This document shows, in pieces, positions 26,656-32,683 of a stretch of DNA of 64,000 nt; within the stretch, counting starts at the first letter, position 1, and the number at the start of each line of letters is the position of its first letter. The stretch spans positions 124,001 to 188,000 of the forward strand of contig NZ_MUXN01000002.1 in assembly GCF_001995215.1 (NCBI RefSeq), read 5' to 3'. The position numbers and the translations under genes are program-made. A model generated the notes under the pieces. It made no database searches, was not told the DNA's origin, and saw only the letters and a program-made list of their open reading frames with translations. Source of the stretch: Amycolatopsis azurea DSM 43854 (GTDB taxonomy: Bacteria; Actinomycetota; Actinomycetes; Mycobacteriales; Pseudonocardiaceae).

Positions 26656-27894
26656 TCAGAACGGCGACGGGTCGTCGTCCGGGGGTGCCGTCGGGCGGGG
26701 TTCGTGCAGGGGCGGCGGGGTGCTGTCGTAGTGCTGCCCGGTCGGGGTGGTGATGGTGAGGGTGCCGTCAGCAGCCAGGGTGTAGATCCAGCCCGGTTCG
26801 TCCTTGAGCCGATGATCACGGCGGCAGAACGCGATCAGGTCATCGACATTCGTATGGCCACCGAACTGCCACGGCACCGAATGGTCCAGGTCGCAGGCTT
26901 GGGCGACACGGTGGCACCCGGGTCTTCGGCACTCACGATCCCGCACCCTCACGAACTCGCCGACACCGGCGGTGGGCCGATACCGTTCCCGGCCCAGGTC
27001 CAGCACCTGCCCGGACAGCGGGTCGGTGATGATCCGCCGCAGCACTGCGTCCGCGCCCGTGGCGATCTCCCGCGCCAGCGATGCCGGAATATGACCATGC
27101 CCGGCCAGCTCCGCCGGATCCTCGTTCAAGCCCAGGTAAGTCGCCAGGTCCATGTAGAGGAACACCTCCGCCCGTTCCCGGGAACCACCCTGCCCGCCCA
27201 ATAGGAGATCCAGCGCGACGTCAGCGCGGAGCTGGTCCAGGGTGCGGGTCTCGCCACCGGTCTTGAGTGCCCGGGCTTCCCGGTCGATCCGGGTGTAGGC
27301 AGCGGTCACCTTCTCCACGGGGCCGTCCTCGACCTCGATCGACGCCACCCCGGACTCGCCCTGCCGCACTCTCAGCCGACGCCCCGCGCGGTTGTGTTCG
27401 GTGCGCCGCGCCGCCCCTTCCTTGTCCACGACCCCTGCCGCATGACTCGCCGCTTTCCGGATCTGCTCGGTATTCCGGCCCGCCAGCCGGTCCTCCAGCA
27501 CCGCGTCCACAGCGCGAGCGTTCTCGTCGGACAGCCACGCGGTCGCCGCGGCGACCTTCGCCGCCCCCGCACCACCCAGCAACCCCCGATCCATCAACCC
27601 CAGCGTGCACGGCAAGCGGGTGGTCAACGCCTCCGCCGTCGACACCAGCGCCGCGGCATGAACGTCCACAACAGACAGCTCGAACGCCACCTCCTGCACC
27701 ACACTCGACGCGCCACCGCGATGACGACCCAGCCGCGCGATCGCACGGAACCGGACCGCCTCCAACCGCGCGATATCCGCCGACGCCGCCTTCGCGAGCG
27801 CCACGCACTCGACGTCGGTCAGGGAGCTGATTTCCTTGTTTGAAGCCAAAAAGGCTGTGTCAGTGTCCACGACGAGAACGGTATGACCGGCCAC
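26656..27894 (-). CDS. DUF222 (13E12 repeat) HNH endonuclease
   Basis: The 412-residue protein has an N-terminal DUF222 domain (about 20-300), found in the 13E12-repeat proteins common in mycobacteria and relatives. It is followed by an HNH nuclease motif near residues 320-370: CRRPGCHRVAQACDLDHSVPW, then HTNVDDLIAFCRRDH, with the paired cysteines and the His-Asn-His set visible. Such genes occur in many copies in actinomycete genomes and may be mobile or selfish elements. It starts with GTG at 27894, 13 bp after the GT39 gene end. No inteins, repeats or target duplications were seen around it. Confidence 0.85.
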   Translation of the reverse strand: MAGHTVLVVDTDTAFLASNKEISSLTDVECVALAKAASADIARLEAVRFRAIARLGRHRGGASSVVQEVAFELSVVDVHAAALVSTAEALTTRLPCTLGLMDRGLLGGAGAAKVAAATAWLSDENARAVDAVLEDRLAGRNTEQIRKAASHAAGVVDKEGAARRTEHNRAGRRLRVRQGESGVASIEVEDGPVEKVTAAYTRIDREARALKTGGETRTLDQLRADVALDLLLGGQGGSRERAEVFLYMDLATYLGLNEDPAELAGHGHIPASLAREIATGADAVLRRIITDPLSGQVLDLGRERYRPTAGVGEFVRVRDRECRRPGCHRVAQACDLDHSVPWQFGGHTNVDDLIAFCRRDHRLKDEPGWIYTLAADGTLTITTPTGQHYDSTPPPLHEPRPTAPPDDDPSPF

Positions 27895-29358: not shown

Positions 29359-30657
29359 TTACTGCGCGGGAGGGGCCAGTTCGACGCGATTGCGGCCACC
29401 CTGCTTCGCCCGGTAGAGCGCTGTGTCGGTGGCGACGAGCAGGTCGTCGACGCTGGTGATGTTGGTGGCCGGGTACAACGCCCCGCCGATCGACACCGTC
29501 AGGTCGGTCAGCACGGTGTCGCGATCGGGCAGGGCGACCGAGACCACCGCCACCTGGTGCCTAATCCGTTCGGCAACCTGGCGCAGCGTCTCTTCGCCGT
29601 GGATGTCCGGGATGACGATCGCGAACTCCTCGCCGCCCCAGCGTCCGCAGACGTCCTGCTCGCGGATCTCGGCGCGCAGCGCGTCACCGACCGCCCGCAG
29701 GACGAGGTCGCCGTTGGGGTGACCGTAGGTGTCGTTGATCGTCTTGAAGTTGTCGAGGTCGAGGAACAGCACGCCGAGTTTCCGGCCGGCCCGTGTCCGG
29801 CCCAGGTGTTCCTCGGCCAGCTGGCGCCAGCGGCGTTTCGTGACGAGCCCGGTGGTGGCGTCGGTGTGCGCGTCGCGCCGGTACTGAGTCAGCAGCAGTC
29901 CGCGGTGCAGCGCGACCAGCGCGATGACGACCCCGACCAGGACCAGTGGATTGGCCTGGACGAGGACGACGGCGGTCACGAGACCGAGGCCGAGCGAGCC
30001 TGCTTCGAGGATCTGGTCGCCGAACCCGGAGAACAGCTCGCCGATCGACTTCGGCGGTGAGGAGAGCGCGATCGCGATCATCACCAGCGCGGTGTTGATC
30101 GCCCAGCGCAGGGCCGCGGCCACGATGATGACGGCCAGGTCGCCCAGCCCGGCGAGCAGTCCGGAGTCGGGTGAGCCGGGGTAGTGGCGCATGCCGAGGC
30201 TGAGGACGACGACGGCGGCCTGCGTGCCGCAGAGCACCGTCGCGGCGGAAAAGATCCACCGATGGGGGAGCACCGGCCGCTGGTGTGGCCAGATCCGCAG
30301 CCATGCGATGGTGTAGGTCACCACGACCATCGCGGCGGCGAGCACCGGCGGCAGCGCGATGACGGCGGCGACGCTCCACACCGCCTTGGTGTCGACGTAG
30401 GCGACCGCCGGGGCCCTGTCGTACTCCCGCTGGCGTTCGATCTGCCGGGTGCCCTCGATCGCGATGGCCGCGCACAGCGTTAAGACGCCGAAGCGGATCA
30501 GGTCGGTACCGGTCACCGGGACCAGCCAGGCCGTGGCGGCGGTCGAGAGGACCGCGATGAGATTCACGACCAGGACGTAGGAACGCACAGGTCGCGGCAG
30601 GCTCCACAGGTGCCAGGCCCTGAGCCGCCGCCGCGCGCCGCCGAGTCGTCCGTCCAC
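29359..30657 (-). CDS. Membrane-anchored diguanylate cyclase (GGDEF)
   Basis: This 432-residue protein has an N-terminal membrane part with about seven or eight helices (residues 25-260). A GGDEF domain follows, whose active site reads GGEEF near residue 340. A product-binding RxxD site (REQD) sits five residues ahead of it, so it should synthesise c-di-GMP with feedback inhibition. No EAL or HD-GYP domain is attached. The start codon is GTG with a GAGGG ribosome site close upstream. It has a paralogue at 43145-44659 with the same layout. It is divergent from the cluster of mini-ORFs at 30787-30993, which may share its control region. Confidence 0.9.
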   Translation of the reverse strand: MDGRLGGARRRLRAWHLWSLPRPVRSYVLVVNLIAVLSTAATAWLVPVTGTDLIRFGVLTLCAAIAIEGTRQIERQREYDRAPAVAYVDTKAVWSVAAVIALPPVLAAAMVVVTYTIAWLRIWPHQRPVLPHRWIFSAATVLCGTQAAVVVLSLGMRHYPGSPDSGLLAGLGDLAVIIVAAALRWAINTALVMIAIALSSPPKSIGELFSGFGDQILEAGSLGLGLVTAVVLVQANPLVLVGVVIALVALHRGLLLTQYRRDAHTDATTGLVTKRRWRQLAEEHLGRTRAGRKLGVLFLDLDNFKTINDTYGHPNGDLVLRAVGDALRAEIREQDVCGRWGGEEFAIVIPDIHGEETLRQVAERIRHQVAVVSVALPDRDTVLTDLTVSIGGALYPATNITSVDDLLVATDTALYRAKQGGRNRVELAPPAQ

Positions 30658-30786
30658 GCACCCTCTTCCGTCGGTGATCTACACCGTAATCGAACCGGGA
30701 CTGCGACGACCGTCGTTGTCCGGACGATAAGAAGCGCGGCCTCGAATTCCCCCGGACAGCCCAACCGAAACGAGGGAGGTGCACCG

Positions 30787-30807
30787 ATGCAGGACAACAA
30801 CTGGTGA
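30787..30807 (+). CDS. Mini-ORF 1, peptide MQDNNW
   Basis: Six codons (ATG CAG GAC AAC AAC TGG) and a TGA follow an excellent ribosome site, GGGAGG, seven bases before the ATG. The peptide shares the word DNNW with two longer mini-ORFs 44 and 139 bases downstream. Its TGA is directly followed by another ATG, which opens an unrelated frame. The size is below any gene-caller threshold. The repeated ribosome site and shared peptide word suggest that it is really translated. Function is unknown; it may be a leader or signalling peptide. Confidence 0.5.
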   Translation: MQDNNW

Positions 30808-30850
30808 ATGTTTTGCCTGATGCATCGCTATTTCGAGGGAGGTGAACGAC

Positions 30851-30898
30851 ATGCGGGACAACAACTGGACCACTCGGCGTGACAACAACTGGACCTGA
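30851..30898 (+). CDS. Mini-ORF 2, peptide MRDNNWTTRRDNNWT
   Basis: This 15-codon ORF starts with ATG eight bases after GGAGG (in GAGGGAGGTG) and ends in TGA. The peptide is an internal duplication of R-DNNWT. It encodes exactly the same peptide as mini-ORF 3. The five differences between the two coding stretches are all synonymous third-base changes, and the sixth is ATG versus GTG at the start. That pattern is what selection on the peptide would leave. No signal peptide or precursor extension is present. Function is unknown. Confidence 0.6.
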   Translation: MRDNNWTTRRDNNWT

Positions 30899-30945
30899 GT
30901 GATCTCGCCCACGAGCGCGCGGCTTCGCGAAGGGAGGTGAACGCA

Positions 30946-30993
30946 GTGCGTGACAACAACTGGACGACCCGACGTGACAACAACTGGACGTGA
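30946..30993 (+). CDS. Mini-ORF 3, peptide identical to mini-ORF 2
   Basis: This GTG-started 15-codon ORF, eight bases after GGAGG in AAGGGAGGTG, encodes the same peptide as mini-ORF 2. Its stop lies 13 bases before the stop codon of the convergent MFS transporter. The 47-bp spacer between mini-ORFs 2 and 3 is not conserved between the copies, whereas ribosome site and coding part are. This indicates a duplication followed by retention of only the translated unit. Confidence 0.6.
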   Translation: MRDNNWTTRRDNNWT

Positions 30994-31006
30994 TGAACCG
31001 ATCGAG

Positions 31007-32266
31007 TCAGGAACCGTGCTCGCCAACGGGTGTCGTCCCGCCGGCCGGTCCCACGGGATCTTCGTGATCCGCGGGGCCGCGGCGGGACGACACCGCCCGT
31101 GACCAGCCCACTCCGGCGACGAAGGCGACCACGACGCCCGCACTCGCGGCGACGGTGATCACGGTGGTCGGCGCGAAGACCTGGGCCAGCAGGCCGGCGG
31201 CCGCGATCCCCGCCGCCTGAGCCGCCCTCAGTGCCGCGATCGCGACCCCGATCACCTGGCCGCGCTGGGCCGACGGCGCGGCGAGGCTGTACTGCGTCTG
31301 GGTGATCATGTCGTGCGCGGAGAACACGCCCGAGAGCGTCCACAACACGACGATCGTGACCAGGCCGGAAGCCCAGCCGGTCGGGATCAGCACCAGGCTG
31401 CTCGCCACCGTCAGCGCGCCCAGCACCCGGACTTGCCGTTCGCGCGGGATCCGGCTCAGCAGGATGCCGCCCAGCACCGACCCGACCGGGTTCGCGGCCA
31501 GCAGCCAGGGCAGCGCGCCCGCGCCGCCCAGTTCGGCGGCGACCGGGACGGCGAGGCCTTCGGGCACGACATAGAAACCGCAGCAGCAGGCGATCAGCAG
31601 CAGCCAGCGCAGCTTGCGGTCGCGGGCGACCAGGCGGCAGCCCGCGATCAGGGAAGGGCGCTTGTGGTGGCTCGGCGCCGAAGGCGGATAGCGATCCAGT
31701 CCGAAGCGGAGCATGACGGCTGACAGCGCGAACGTCCCCGCGTCGATCAGCAGCGCCCCGGGGACGCCGAGACCGGTGACGACGGCGGCGCCCGCGCCGA
31801 AGCCCACCACGAGCCCGGCCTGGTAGGTGGACGAGATGATCGCCTGGCCGACGACCAGGCGGTCCGGGTCCAGCAGATCCGGCAGCATCGCCTGCCGGGC
31901 CGCTTGGAACGGTCCGGCCATCAGCTGCACGAGGAACAGCAGCGCGGCCGCGGCGGGCAGGGGCAGGCCCGGGACCGCCATCAGCGCGATCAGCACCGCG
32001 CGGCCGACGTCGGTCACCACCATCACGGTGCGTCGCGAGAACCGGTCCGCGACGCCGCCCAGCGCGCCGCCGAGGAGATCGGGCACGAAGGTCAGCGCAT
32101 ACGCCGCCGATGCCCAGCCCGCCGACGACGTCCGGTCGAACACCAGCACCGTGAGCGCGACCCTGGCCAGCTGGTCGCCGGCGATCGACAGCAGGTGCGC
32201 GAGCCAGATCCGGCGGAATTCGGCGACCGCGAAGACGCTGCGGAACGACGCCGCCCGGGCTGGCAT
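31007..32266 (-). CDS. MFS transporter (MFS_3/enterobactin-exporter-like)
   Basis: The 419-residue protein has about twelve membrane helices and begins FAVAEFRRIWLAHLLSIAGD, typical of the EntS/MFS_3-type exporters. The loop motif GGVADRFSRRTVMVVTD between helices 2 and 3 is clear. The start was placed at ATG 32266 (MPARAASFRS). A longer frame to 32401 would overlap the start of the divergent small gene and adds non-family residues. A short basic tail lies at the C-terminus. The gene converges on the DNNW mini-ORFs, so it is a possible but unproven exporter for those peptides. Confidence 0.82.
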   Translation of the reverse strand: MPARAASFRSVFAVAEFRRIWLAHLLSIAGDQLARVALTVLVFDRTSSAGWASAAYALTFVPDLLGGALGGVADRFSRRTVMVVTDVGRAVLIALMAVPGLPLPAAAALLFLVQLMAGPFQAARQAMLPDLLDPDRLVVGQAIISSTYQAGLVVGFGAGAAVVTGLGVPGALLIDAGTFALSAVMLRFGLDRYPPSAPSHHKRPSLIAGCRLVARDRKLRWLLLIACCCGFYVVPEGLAVPVAAELGGAGALPWLLAANPVGSVLGGILLSRIPRERQVRVLGALTVASSLVLIPTGWASGLVTIVVLWTLSGVFSAHDMITQTQYSLAAPSAQRGQVIGVAIAALRAAQAAGIAAAGLLAQVFAPTTVITVAASAGVVVAFVAGVGWSRAVSSRRGPADHEDPVGPAGGTTPVGEHGS

Positions 32267-32392
32267 GCGCTTCAGGCTGTCGTGAAGCGACCACTTCGCG
32301 CAACCCCGAAGATCTTCGAAAAATATCCGCCGCCGTGTCGAACCGCGGGGTACTCGTTCGACGTGTGAGTAAGAGAAGGAACGGAGAATCCG

Positions 32393-32683
32393 ATGTCGCA
32401 CTCACTGGGCCCGCTGGCCAACAACCTCGCCGCCTATGCCATCTACTCGACCGCGCAGACCGAGATGCGCCACGCCTACAAGCTGATCGATGCGGGCGAC
32501 TACCTCGGCGCCGCCGCGGAGATCGATTCCGCCGCGCACGCCGCCGAGGTCCTCGCCCGCGCCACCTCCGAACTGGACGCCGAGCGTTCGGAACGATGGC
32601 TCAGAGTCGTCGCCGCCCGGAGGCGGTTCGCCGAACAGGCCCGGGTGCGGGCCTCGGACACCGCACTGCCGCTCGCCGCGTGA
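32393..32683 (+). CDS. Small helical protein of unknown function
   Basis: The 96-residue protein (MSHSLGPLANNLAAYAIYST) starts nine bases after a GGAG ribosome site and has strongly actinobacterial codon use. It is predicted all-helical and alanine-rich, without membrane segments, cysteines or recognisable motifs. The pattern YKLIDAGDYLGAAAEIDSAA vaguely recalls a single tetratricopeptide-like hairpin. It is divergent from the MFS gene, so the 126-bp region between them probably holds both promoters. It ends one base from the stop codon of the fucosidase-like gene. I do not recognise the family. Confidence 0.7.
   Translation: MSHSLGPLANNLAAYAIYSTAQTEMRHAYKLIDAGDYLGAAAEIDSAAHAAEVLARATSELDAERSERWLRVVAARRRFAEQARVRASDTALPLAA

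Follow-up and report, generated by a model that had tools for sequence, protein, structure and literature searches.

The minigene array and its neighbouring genes

Our analysis of a 64,000-nt stretch of the genome of Amycolatopsis azurea DSM 43854, referred to here as the window, revealed three mini-ORFs of 6, 15 and 15 codons on the forward strand, and the coordinates and ribosome sites of the original prediction were confirmed for all of them. Minigene 1 (30787..30807, +) comprises six codons and a stop and encodes MQDNNW, a peptide also present in the close relatives that were read; its second residue is Q, a small correction of the R predicted earlier. Minigene 2 (30851..30898, +), with 15 codons and a stop, encodes MRDNNWTTRRDNNWT, which carries two RDNNW copies, and minigene 3 (30946..30993, +), which starts with GTG, encodes the identical 15-residue peptide (MRDNNWTTRRDNNWT). 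The ribosome site GGGAGGTG was found at 30774..30781, 30837..30844 and 30932..30939 (all +), its end lying 5-6 nt upstream of the start codon of each of the three minigenes. The 48-base units of minigenes 2 and 3 differ at five third positions (CGG/CGT, ACC/ACG, ACT/ACC, CGG/CGA and ACC/ACG), all synonymous, and by the exchange of ATG for GTG, exactly as had been claimed. Neither a leader nor a signal sequence was seen in the window minigenes of 6 and 15 residues, as had likewise been noted.

A repeat of 63 nt with 87% identity was registered across the window array together with five copies of GACAACAACTGG, and RTGCRNGAYAAYAAYTGG had three matches in the window, where none was expected by chance: 100 dinucleotide shuffles gave 0. 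The array was not reported by Tandem Repeats Finder, the Rfam search of the window gave 0 matches at the gathering score, and scans of 30600-31100 with sigma-70 and terminator consensus sequences gave 0 matches. The divergent region from the start of the neighbouring cyclase gene to minigene 1 (30658..30786, listed without a strand) probably holds both promoters. It contains CCCGGACAGCCCA at 30751-30763, and by eye a similar form, perhaps a shared promoter or operator, could be recognized ahead of the first minigene at many of the homologous loci. A CCCGGACAGCCCA-like stretch was seen by eye even in locus L097, where no peptide was found. Elsewhere in the window, a DUF222/HNH endonuclease-like gene (26656-27894, -) was identified by Pfam, of a type reminiscent of mobile repeats of actinobacteria.

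The array lies between a diguanylate cyclase (DGC) gene and a transporter gene, as had been noted before, and both probably belong to the system. In the DGC (29359..30657, -), a GGDEF domain occupies residues 263-424 (Pfam PF00990, E 4.5e-40), and the N-terminal ~250 residues constitute the proposed receptor. The window protein carries the catalytic motif GGEEF and the I-site R332xxD335, and R332, D335, G341, G342 and E344 were invariant among 22 DGC homologues; with GGDEF active-site residues and an RxxD I-site, the partner protein has the features of a predicted diguanylate cyclase. GGDEF was the sole family over cut-off in this partner, and no histidine kinase was recognized in it. The structure model displayed N-terminal helices, with a mean pLDDT of 74.7. 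Pfam assigned no family over cut-off to the N-terminal ~250 residues of five proteins (three searched whole, two as the membrane half alone), and no family model over cut-off covered either the peptides or the DGC membrane half. In the fold search, the matches listed were GGDEF proteins, among them SadC, WspR and ImcA of Pseudomonas, with no usable match for the membrane half among them. PADLOC reported no system with the DGC and the transporter.

The transporter of the major facilitator superfamily (MFS; 31007..32401, -; PF07690, E 8.5e-27) is convergent with the array and is the proposed exporter. Its NCBIfam matches to the TIGR00900 H+ antiporter and EntS models lie below the cut-offs, and by these matches it resembles drug and siderophore exporters. 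The search of the PDB by sequence gave 0 matches for the MFS.

Conservation of the locus and private peptides at related loci

Conservation in close relatives, whose absence would have spoken against the original prediction, was evident, the pattern with its ribosome site being recovered in 36 of 80 same-genus genomes (2-11 matches each, one cluster per genome) and the reversed control pattern in 0 of 80. A DGC homologue at E <= 1e-80 was found in 49 of the 80 genomes, and the 36 in which the DGC was at least 70% identical were exactly the 36 with the array pattern. In the window and 20 relatives an array of 2-17 minigenes was present in all 21 neighbourhoods, the window array being a small one. 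The larger arrays follow M/V-R-D-N-N-W-(T/A/S/I/N)-R at ~70 bp spacing, with a ribosome site on nearly all minigenes. The layout DGC<-, array->, MFS<- was kept in 21/21, with the array on the strand opposite to both neighbour genes, the DGC divergent from it and the MFS convergent. No gene other than DGC and MFS recurred in all 21 neighbourhoods, where other recurrent genes were typed only in part. In-frame stops were counted within the DGC match of genome G032 and the MFS matches of G009, G012, G025, G042 and G076; the stops could reflect misplaced start sites or genes in decay.

Other cores within the same architecture were encountered in more distant members of the genus, in other genera of the family and in a second family, that of Jiangella. 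The pattern was found in 28 stretches from Amycolatopsis, Saccharomonospora, Jiangella and Phytoactinopolyspora; single matches in Succiniclasticum, Daviesbacteria and Caldivirga were taken as chance. A looser pattern applied class-wide matched 16 of 393 genomes, namely the window's own, ten of one other family and five with single matches (G463, G613, G456, G493 and G609), the last being taken as chance; the reversed control matched 5 of the 393, and 2 of 297 genomes in another scan. The ten loci of that other family held a DGC in 10/10 and an MFS in 9/10 cases, with the cores DNNWN x8, DNTWS x5, DVNWT (also DSNWT), DNTWT x4-8 and DNNWT x1. Mini-ORFs were detected in 57 of the 67 loci scanned, two of which are duplicates. 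Variants in the same slot beside diverged DGC orthologues included MSDNNW, MADNNW, MRDVNW and MRENNW, peptides in which NNTW occurs twice, and VRDTNW (L095), MRENTWRENTWK, MRTNEIW and VRDVNW. Copies within one array share their core, with few exceptions (L047, L163).

Two irregularities of array structure were observed on reading. A lone MRDNNW minigene at ~8474 of L087 (G275:C80; Saccharomonospora saliphila), with the ribosome-site stretch of that genome's main locus and no DGC or MFS match within its 17-kb stretch, may be read as a stray copy or as a duplicate created during assembly. In L046 (8562-8850) and L050 (8719-9260), an extra ribosome site with GTG start precedes the first minigene, and L046 also has a stretch there that looks self-complementary by eye; these features might represent a degenerate copy or an element of RNA control.

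Furthermore, most of the loci read for this DGC family carry a private peptide. The window genome alone has five loci combining DGC, MFS and peptide, with DNNW (here), MRGQNW, MNGRED, VSRDF+VSSRDF and MAGKEQ, and two more DGC paralogues whose slot contains neither peptide nor MFS. Minigene cores at other DGC loci were NNTW x2, DKIW x3, ANSW x2, GNSW x5 and NKSW x11, followed by GNSW, ANSW, DNKW, DNHW, ENCW, DAHW, DTNW, SVQW and HTSW; DVNW, DNTW, ENTW, SRDF, NGRED and AGKEQ occupy DGC slots as well. Some loci carry single ORFs with tandem cores (PTDW x5-10, GNEW x4-6, STDW x6, DSNWH x5, GSEWH x4, RPNDWR x3, RPADWR x3, RPAEWR x2 and RPSEWTR x2), and five such precursors gave nothing over cut-off in NCBIfam and Pfam, with two weak Pfam lines below it. 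Cores differ among the DGC loci of one genome (DNKW, ANSW and DNHW in G437; ENCW, ANSW and DAHW in G512), and DGC homologues from two additional families of the class also have minigenes next to them (SVQW x2 in L305, HTSW x2 in L306). The locus L217 (G046:C59), a second DGC-MFS locus with NNTW minigenes, has its DGC match in two separate pieces, N-terminal and C-terminal, perhaps owing to a frame break.

Among sets of DGC homologues, a peptide was present in 17 of 20 stretches of one set, the remaining three being without a DGC match, in 15 of 20 of a second, in which L252 was recognized by eye and L238 is truncated, and next to 18 of the 21 DGCs in a third; one automatic scan rule missed cores that are visible on reading. 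Every one of the 80 genus genomes contains a match to the DGC of the SRDF locus; in 77 of them it has E <= 1e-148, and the remaining three matches, at 1e-63 to 1e-75, are probably paralogues. Minigenes of this type occur in 30 of the best 30 loci, with SRDF in the 19 closest and then SRDW, NRDF, NRDG, NRDL and NRDA. For the NGRED type, the scan found minigenes in 24 of the best 30 loci, to which NRDS in L361 was added by eye; the core is NGRED in 17 of the 17 closest loci and NRES x3-5, CGRDN, NRET or NRDT in others. GQNW was kept in 10 of 10 relatives fetched, and an AGKEQ, AGRDQ or ASRDQ minigene in 19 of 19 loci. DGC homologues for which no peptide was found, which tell against the reading proposed below, included L171 (62% identity to the window DGC), L097, L172-L175, L247, L250, L251, L253, L289, L292, L356-L358, L360, L364 and the second DGC of L304. 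As to spread, the membrane half was detected at E <= 1e-25 in 22 of 324 class genomes, from four families; of 276 genomes drawn across the phylum, only the window's own had it at E <= 1e-20.

Selection on the peptide and co-variation with the membrane half

The comparison of copies bears on the original proposal that selection acts on the peptide itself. For 13 arrays from clade 2 of Amycolatopsis, the spacers that separate the copies were 32% identical within an array, in line with the earlier remark that the spacer is not conserved, third positions agreed in 40% for the R codon and in 100% for D-N-N, and in 24 loci with tandem-core ORFs (of which L246 gave no copies) same-core copies differed at third positions in 315 of 1101 comparisons; copies were picked by peptide in both comparisons, and identity at amino-acid-determining positions is therefore given by construction. 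Since the core changes as a unit across lineages (DVNW, DNTW, ENTW) and tandem cores vary synonymously, a constraint at the peptide level is supported by these sequences, and the proposal of selection on the peptide stands with a reserve about D and N codons that are too constant.

In a set of 286 minigenes, from which L087, L122 and L123 (the last two being duplicates of L082 and L081) and one repeated ORF in L164, taken as spurious, were excluded, the start codon was ATG in 181, GTG in 104 and TTG in 1. CGT accounts for 34% of the R codons of minigenes; its share is 6% for the adjacent DGC/MFS genes and 27% for ribosomal genes of the window genome, and this preference suggests strong expression. 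D and N codons ended in C in 851 of 854 cases and in T in 3 of 854, and T-ending codons were rarer than ribosomal usage of the window genome predicts (P ~7e-4 and 4e-5, with units that are not independent and genera pooled). This constancy goes beyond what selection on the peptide alone predicts, and a constraint on the nucleic acid may act in addition. Unlike the D/N codons of the 286 minigenes, those of SRDF minigenes and tandem-core ORFs show synonymous variation.

The extreme constancy of D and N third positions, along with the good ribosome sites, is what could be expected if the array were an RNA or translation device (leader, attenuator, ribosome or tRNA sink) and the peptide a by-product. 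We consider this highly implausible, because both neighbours lie on the other strand, tandem cores in one longer ORF with varying third positions make no minigene device, and cores are replaced by other cores. A leader peptide or attenuator uORF in particular would lie upstream on the same strand as its target, and was rejected for an array opposite to both neighbours. Hence, of the two roles originally suggested, signalling fits the locus and leader does not.

The relation between peptide and DGC was followed at the AGKEQ locus in 19 close genomes, of which three carry AGKEQ (K), 15 AGRDQ (R) and one (G012) ASRDQ. DGC residues 1-240 were 70.0% identical between K and R genomes (67.9-72.9, 45 pairs), compared with 95.4% among R (105 pairs) and 95.4% among K genomes (3 pairs), and residues 241-436, the GGDEF half, showed 94.9% (K-R), 95.2% (R-R) and 93.9% (K-K). 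All 52 fixed K/R differences in the DGC fall within residues 1-240 (52/52, G012 left out). In G012, with one changed peptide residue, the membrane half was 88.4% identical to R and the GGDEF half 94.6%, so that by these identities the former is the faster-evolving part and the latter is normal. In the MFS, residues 1-360 were 95.9% (K-R), 96.2% (R-R) and 97.1% (K-K) identical, and residues 361-417, the C-terminal end that adjoins the peptide, 71.2%, 91.0% and 83.6%, respectively.

The membrane-half tree united the three K genomes in one clade with support 1.000, and they were scattered beside different R genomes both in the tree of the GGDEF half and in that of the DGC from the DNNW locus, which covers 17 of the 19 genomes and places the window's genome (G000) with a low support of 0.28. 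The K clade solely in the membrane-half tree points to a cassette of peptide and membrane half that moved between species. At the level of sequence, peptide type thus co-varies with the membrane half of the DGC and not with its GGDEF half (one locus, 19 genomes), and the pattern, so read, is the pherotype pattern of peptide-receptor pairs. Beyond this locus, among 73 DGCs with cores labelled by hand (L330 dropped of 74 for an internal stop), the identity of membrane halves in same-core pairs exceeded the value predicted from their GGDEF halves by 17.5 points, an effect reached in 0 of 2000 shuffles of the labels, which ignore phylogeny. From this co-variation we infer a functional pairing of peptide and DGC.

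The peptide gene adjoins the part of the DGC gene that codes for the membrane half, and a single tract of recombination could transfer the two together even if their products never interact; linkage could thus mimic part of the co-variation pattern. Peptide gene and MFS end would then merely have been dragged along by a recombining hypervariable sensor domain, with a peptide function unrelated to the DGC. The neighbouring position of peptide gene and sensor-coding part, and a divergent tract that takes in the MFS C-terminus, speak for such hitch-hiking, which we nevertheless find distinctly improbable: it leaves unexplained why so many paralogous DGC loci have a peptide of their own kind in the slot, why copies of an array have the same core, and the family-wide same-core effect, measured against shuffles that ignore phylogeny.

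A candidate peptide-to-c-di-GMP channel and its comparison with known systems

The reading that we prefer, with a probability of roughly 60%, is that these leaderless multi-copy genes supply a peptide ligand of the DGC membrane half, most likely exported by the MFS, and so form a peptide-to-c-di-GMP channel. The mini-ORFs would be translated and the peptide released, with an active core of four or five residues (here DNNW), and the neighbouring MFS would probably carry it out of the cell. As the cognate ligand, the peptide would be recognized by the membrane-embedded N-terminal half of the neighbouring DGC, and the GGDEF half would convert occupancy into a change of c-di-GMP. Copy number, whether as many separate minigenes or as one tandem-core ORF, may set the dose, and the role would be one between cells. 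Since paralogous loci of one genome have different cores, a cell would run several parallel, insulated channels. A broader picture, tentative and in our view slightly easier to doubt than to accept, is a multi-channel peptide language of Amycolatopsis and its relatives: several membrane DGCs would each be the receptor of their own 4-6 residue pheromone from leaderless minigenes, with dedicated MFS export, private quorum or kin signals would be read as c-di-GMP, and peptide and receptor half would be exchanged between species as a specificity cassette.

Export was judged from the presence of the MFS. Twenty-one of the DGC loci that the scans had left without a peptide were tested, and none had an MFS match in the slot; on reading, a possible peptide is seen in L361 and L099, and the stretches of L100 and L238 are truncated. 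Peptide and MFS therefore appear tied. Some peptide-bearing loci, e.g., L090, L170, L305 and L306, have no MFS match in the slot, and L084 and L085 keep minigene and MFS with the DGC match absent; these loci make export the weakest link, and no export signal was seen. The peptides might stay inside the cell as private ligands or brakes of the cognate DGC, in autoregulation rather than communication and with an unrelated MFS. Minigenes without leader or signal sequence, an array divergent from the DGC, peptide loci lacking the MFS match and an MFS body that does not co-vary with peptide type all agree with an intracellular role. We regard it as unlikely, given that those 21 loci, with the four exceptions of reading and truncation just named, tie the peptide to the MFS and that peptide types are exchanged among species, which is typical of between-cell signals.

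The proposed channel looks like an undescribed bacterial signalling system, and no description of it was found in the open-access literature as far as its texts were accessible. If true, it represents peptide signalling in actinobacteria of an antibiotic-producing genus, and membrane diguanylate cyclases would gain ligands that are readable from the adjoining genome sequence; cheap synthetic hexapeptides would then allow a direct test of what these membrane GGDEF proteins respond to. Arrays of 5-16 codon ORFs are as well a gene class likely missed by gene callers. The window DGC shares the C-terminal GGDEF fold with SadC, WspR and ImcA according to the fold matches, and differs from them in its N-terminal ~250 residues without a Pfam family and in its tie to a private peptide.

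Precursors of comparable size are those of the biarylitide RiPPs, which, in the accessible part of the report, consist of five residues encoded by 18-bp minigenes, evade automatic detection and are served by dedicated P450 enzymes (PMC13417212). Minigenes of 5-8 codons (VSRDF, MQDNNW) occur here beside the 15-residue and tandem-core forms, and biarylitide motifs such as MRYWY begin with MR, as many of our minigenes do (PMC13417212, as far as accessible). This likeness in size and MR start, the presence of cores in several copies and a W that recurs in one position at many loci would fit minimal RiPP precursors whose core is modified by enzymes encoded elsewhere, the MFS exporting the product and the DGC reading a small modified peptide. 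Such an origin seems to us quite improbable, as Pfam named no modifying enzyme, and no cytochrome P450 in particular, among the 8 neighbours in the window, DGC and MFS alone recur in all 21 neighbourhoods (other recurrent genes typed in part), and non-aromatic cores (NGRED, AGKEQ, NRES) have no common target residue. The many copies per locus and the many core types, including non-aromatic ones, also set the present loci apart from biarylitides.

Phr precursors possess signal sequences, and their receptors are cytosolic TPR proteins. Phr/RRNPP systems resemble the present one in a short linear peptide that is private to one receptor and in several parallel pairs per genome, whereas here no leader exists and the partner is a membrane GGDEF protein. 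A Phr/RRNPP system was rejected for the window locus, where both the signal sequence and an adjacent TPR receptor are absent.

The closest likeness is to pherotype peptide quorum sensing, known from Agr, ComQXPA and ComCDE. An Agr/Com histidine-kinase system as such was rejected, the window locus having no kinase or response regulator partner and no leader or processing enzyme (Pfam named none of the latter among the 8 neighbours). In pherotype systems, like here, a small peptide gene lies beside a membrane sensor, and the type of peptide varies together with the input domain of the sensor from strain to strain, with mosaic exchange, the output domain being conserved. Their output is a histidine kinase, in contrast to the diguanylate cyclase found here, and the peptide genes of the present loci differ from theirs in having 5-16 codons, in being leaderless, in standing in arrays of up to 17 or as tandem-core ORFs, and in being accompanied by an MFS instead of a processing enzyme. 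Hence, what appears new is the leaderless minigene format joined to a DGC partner, and the proposed mode of action is of a known kind, that of the pherotype.
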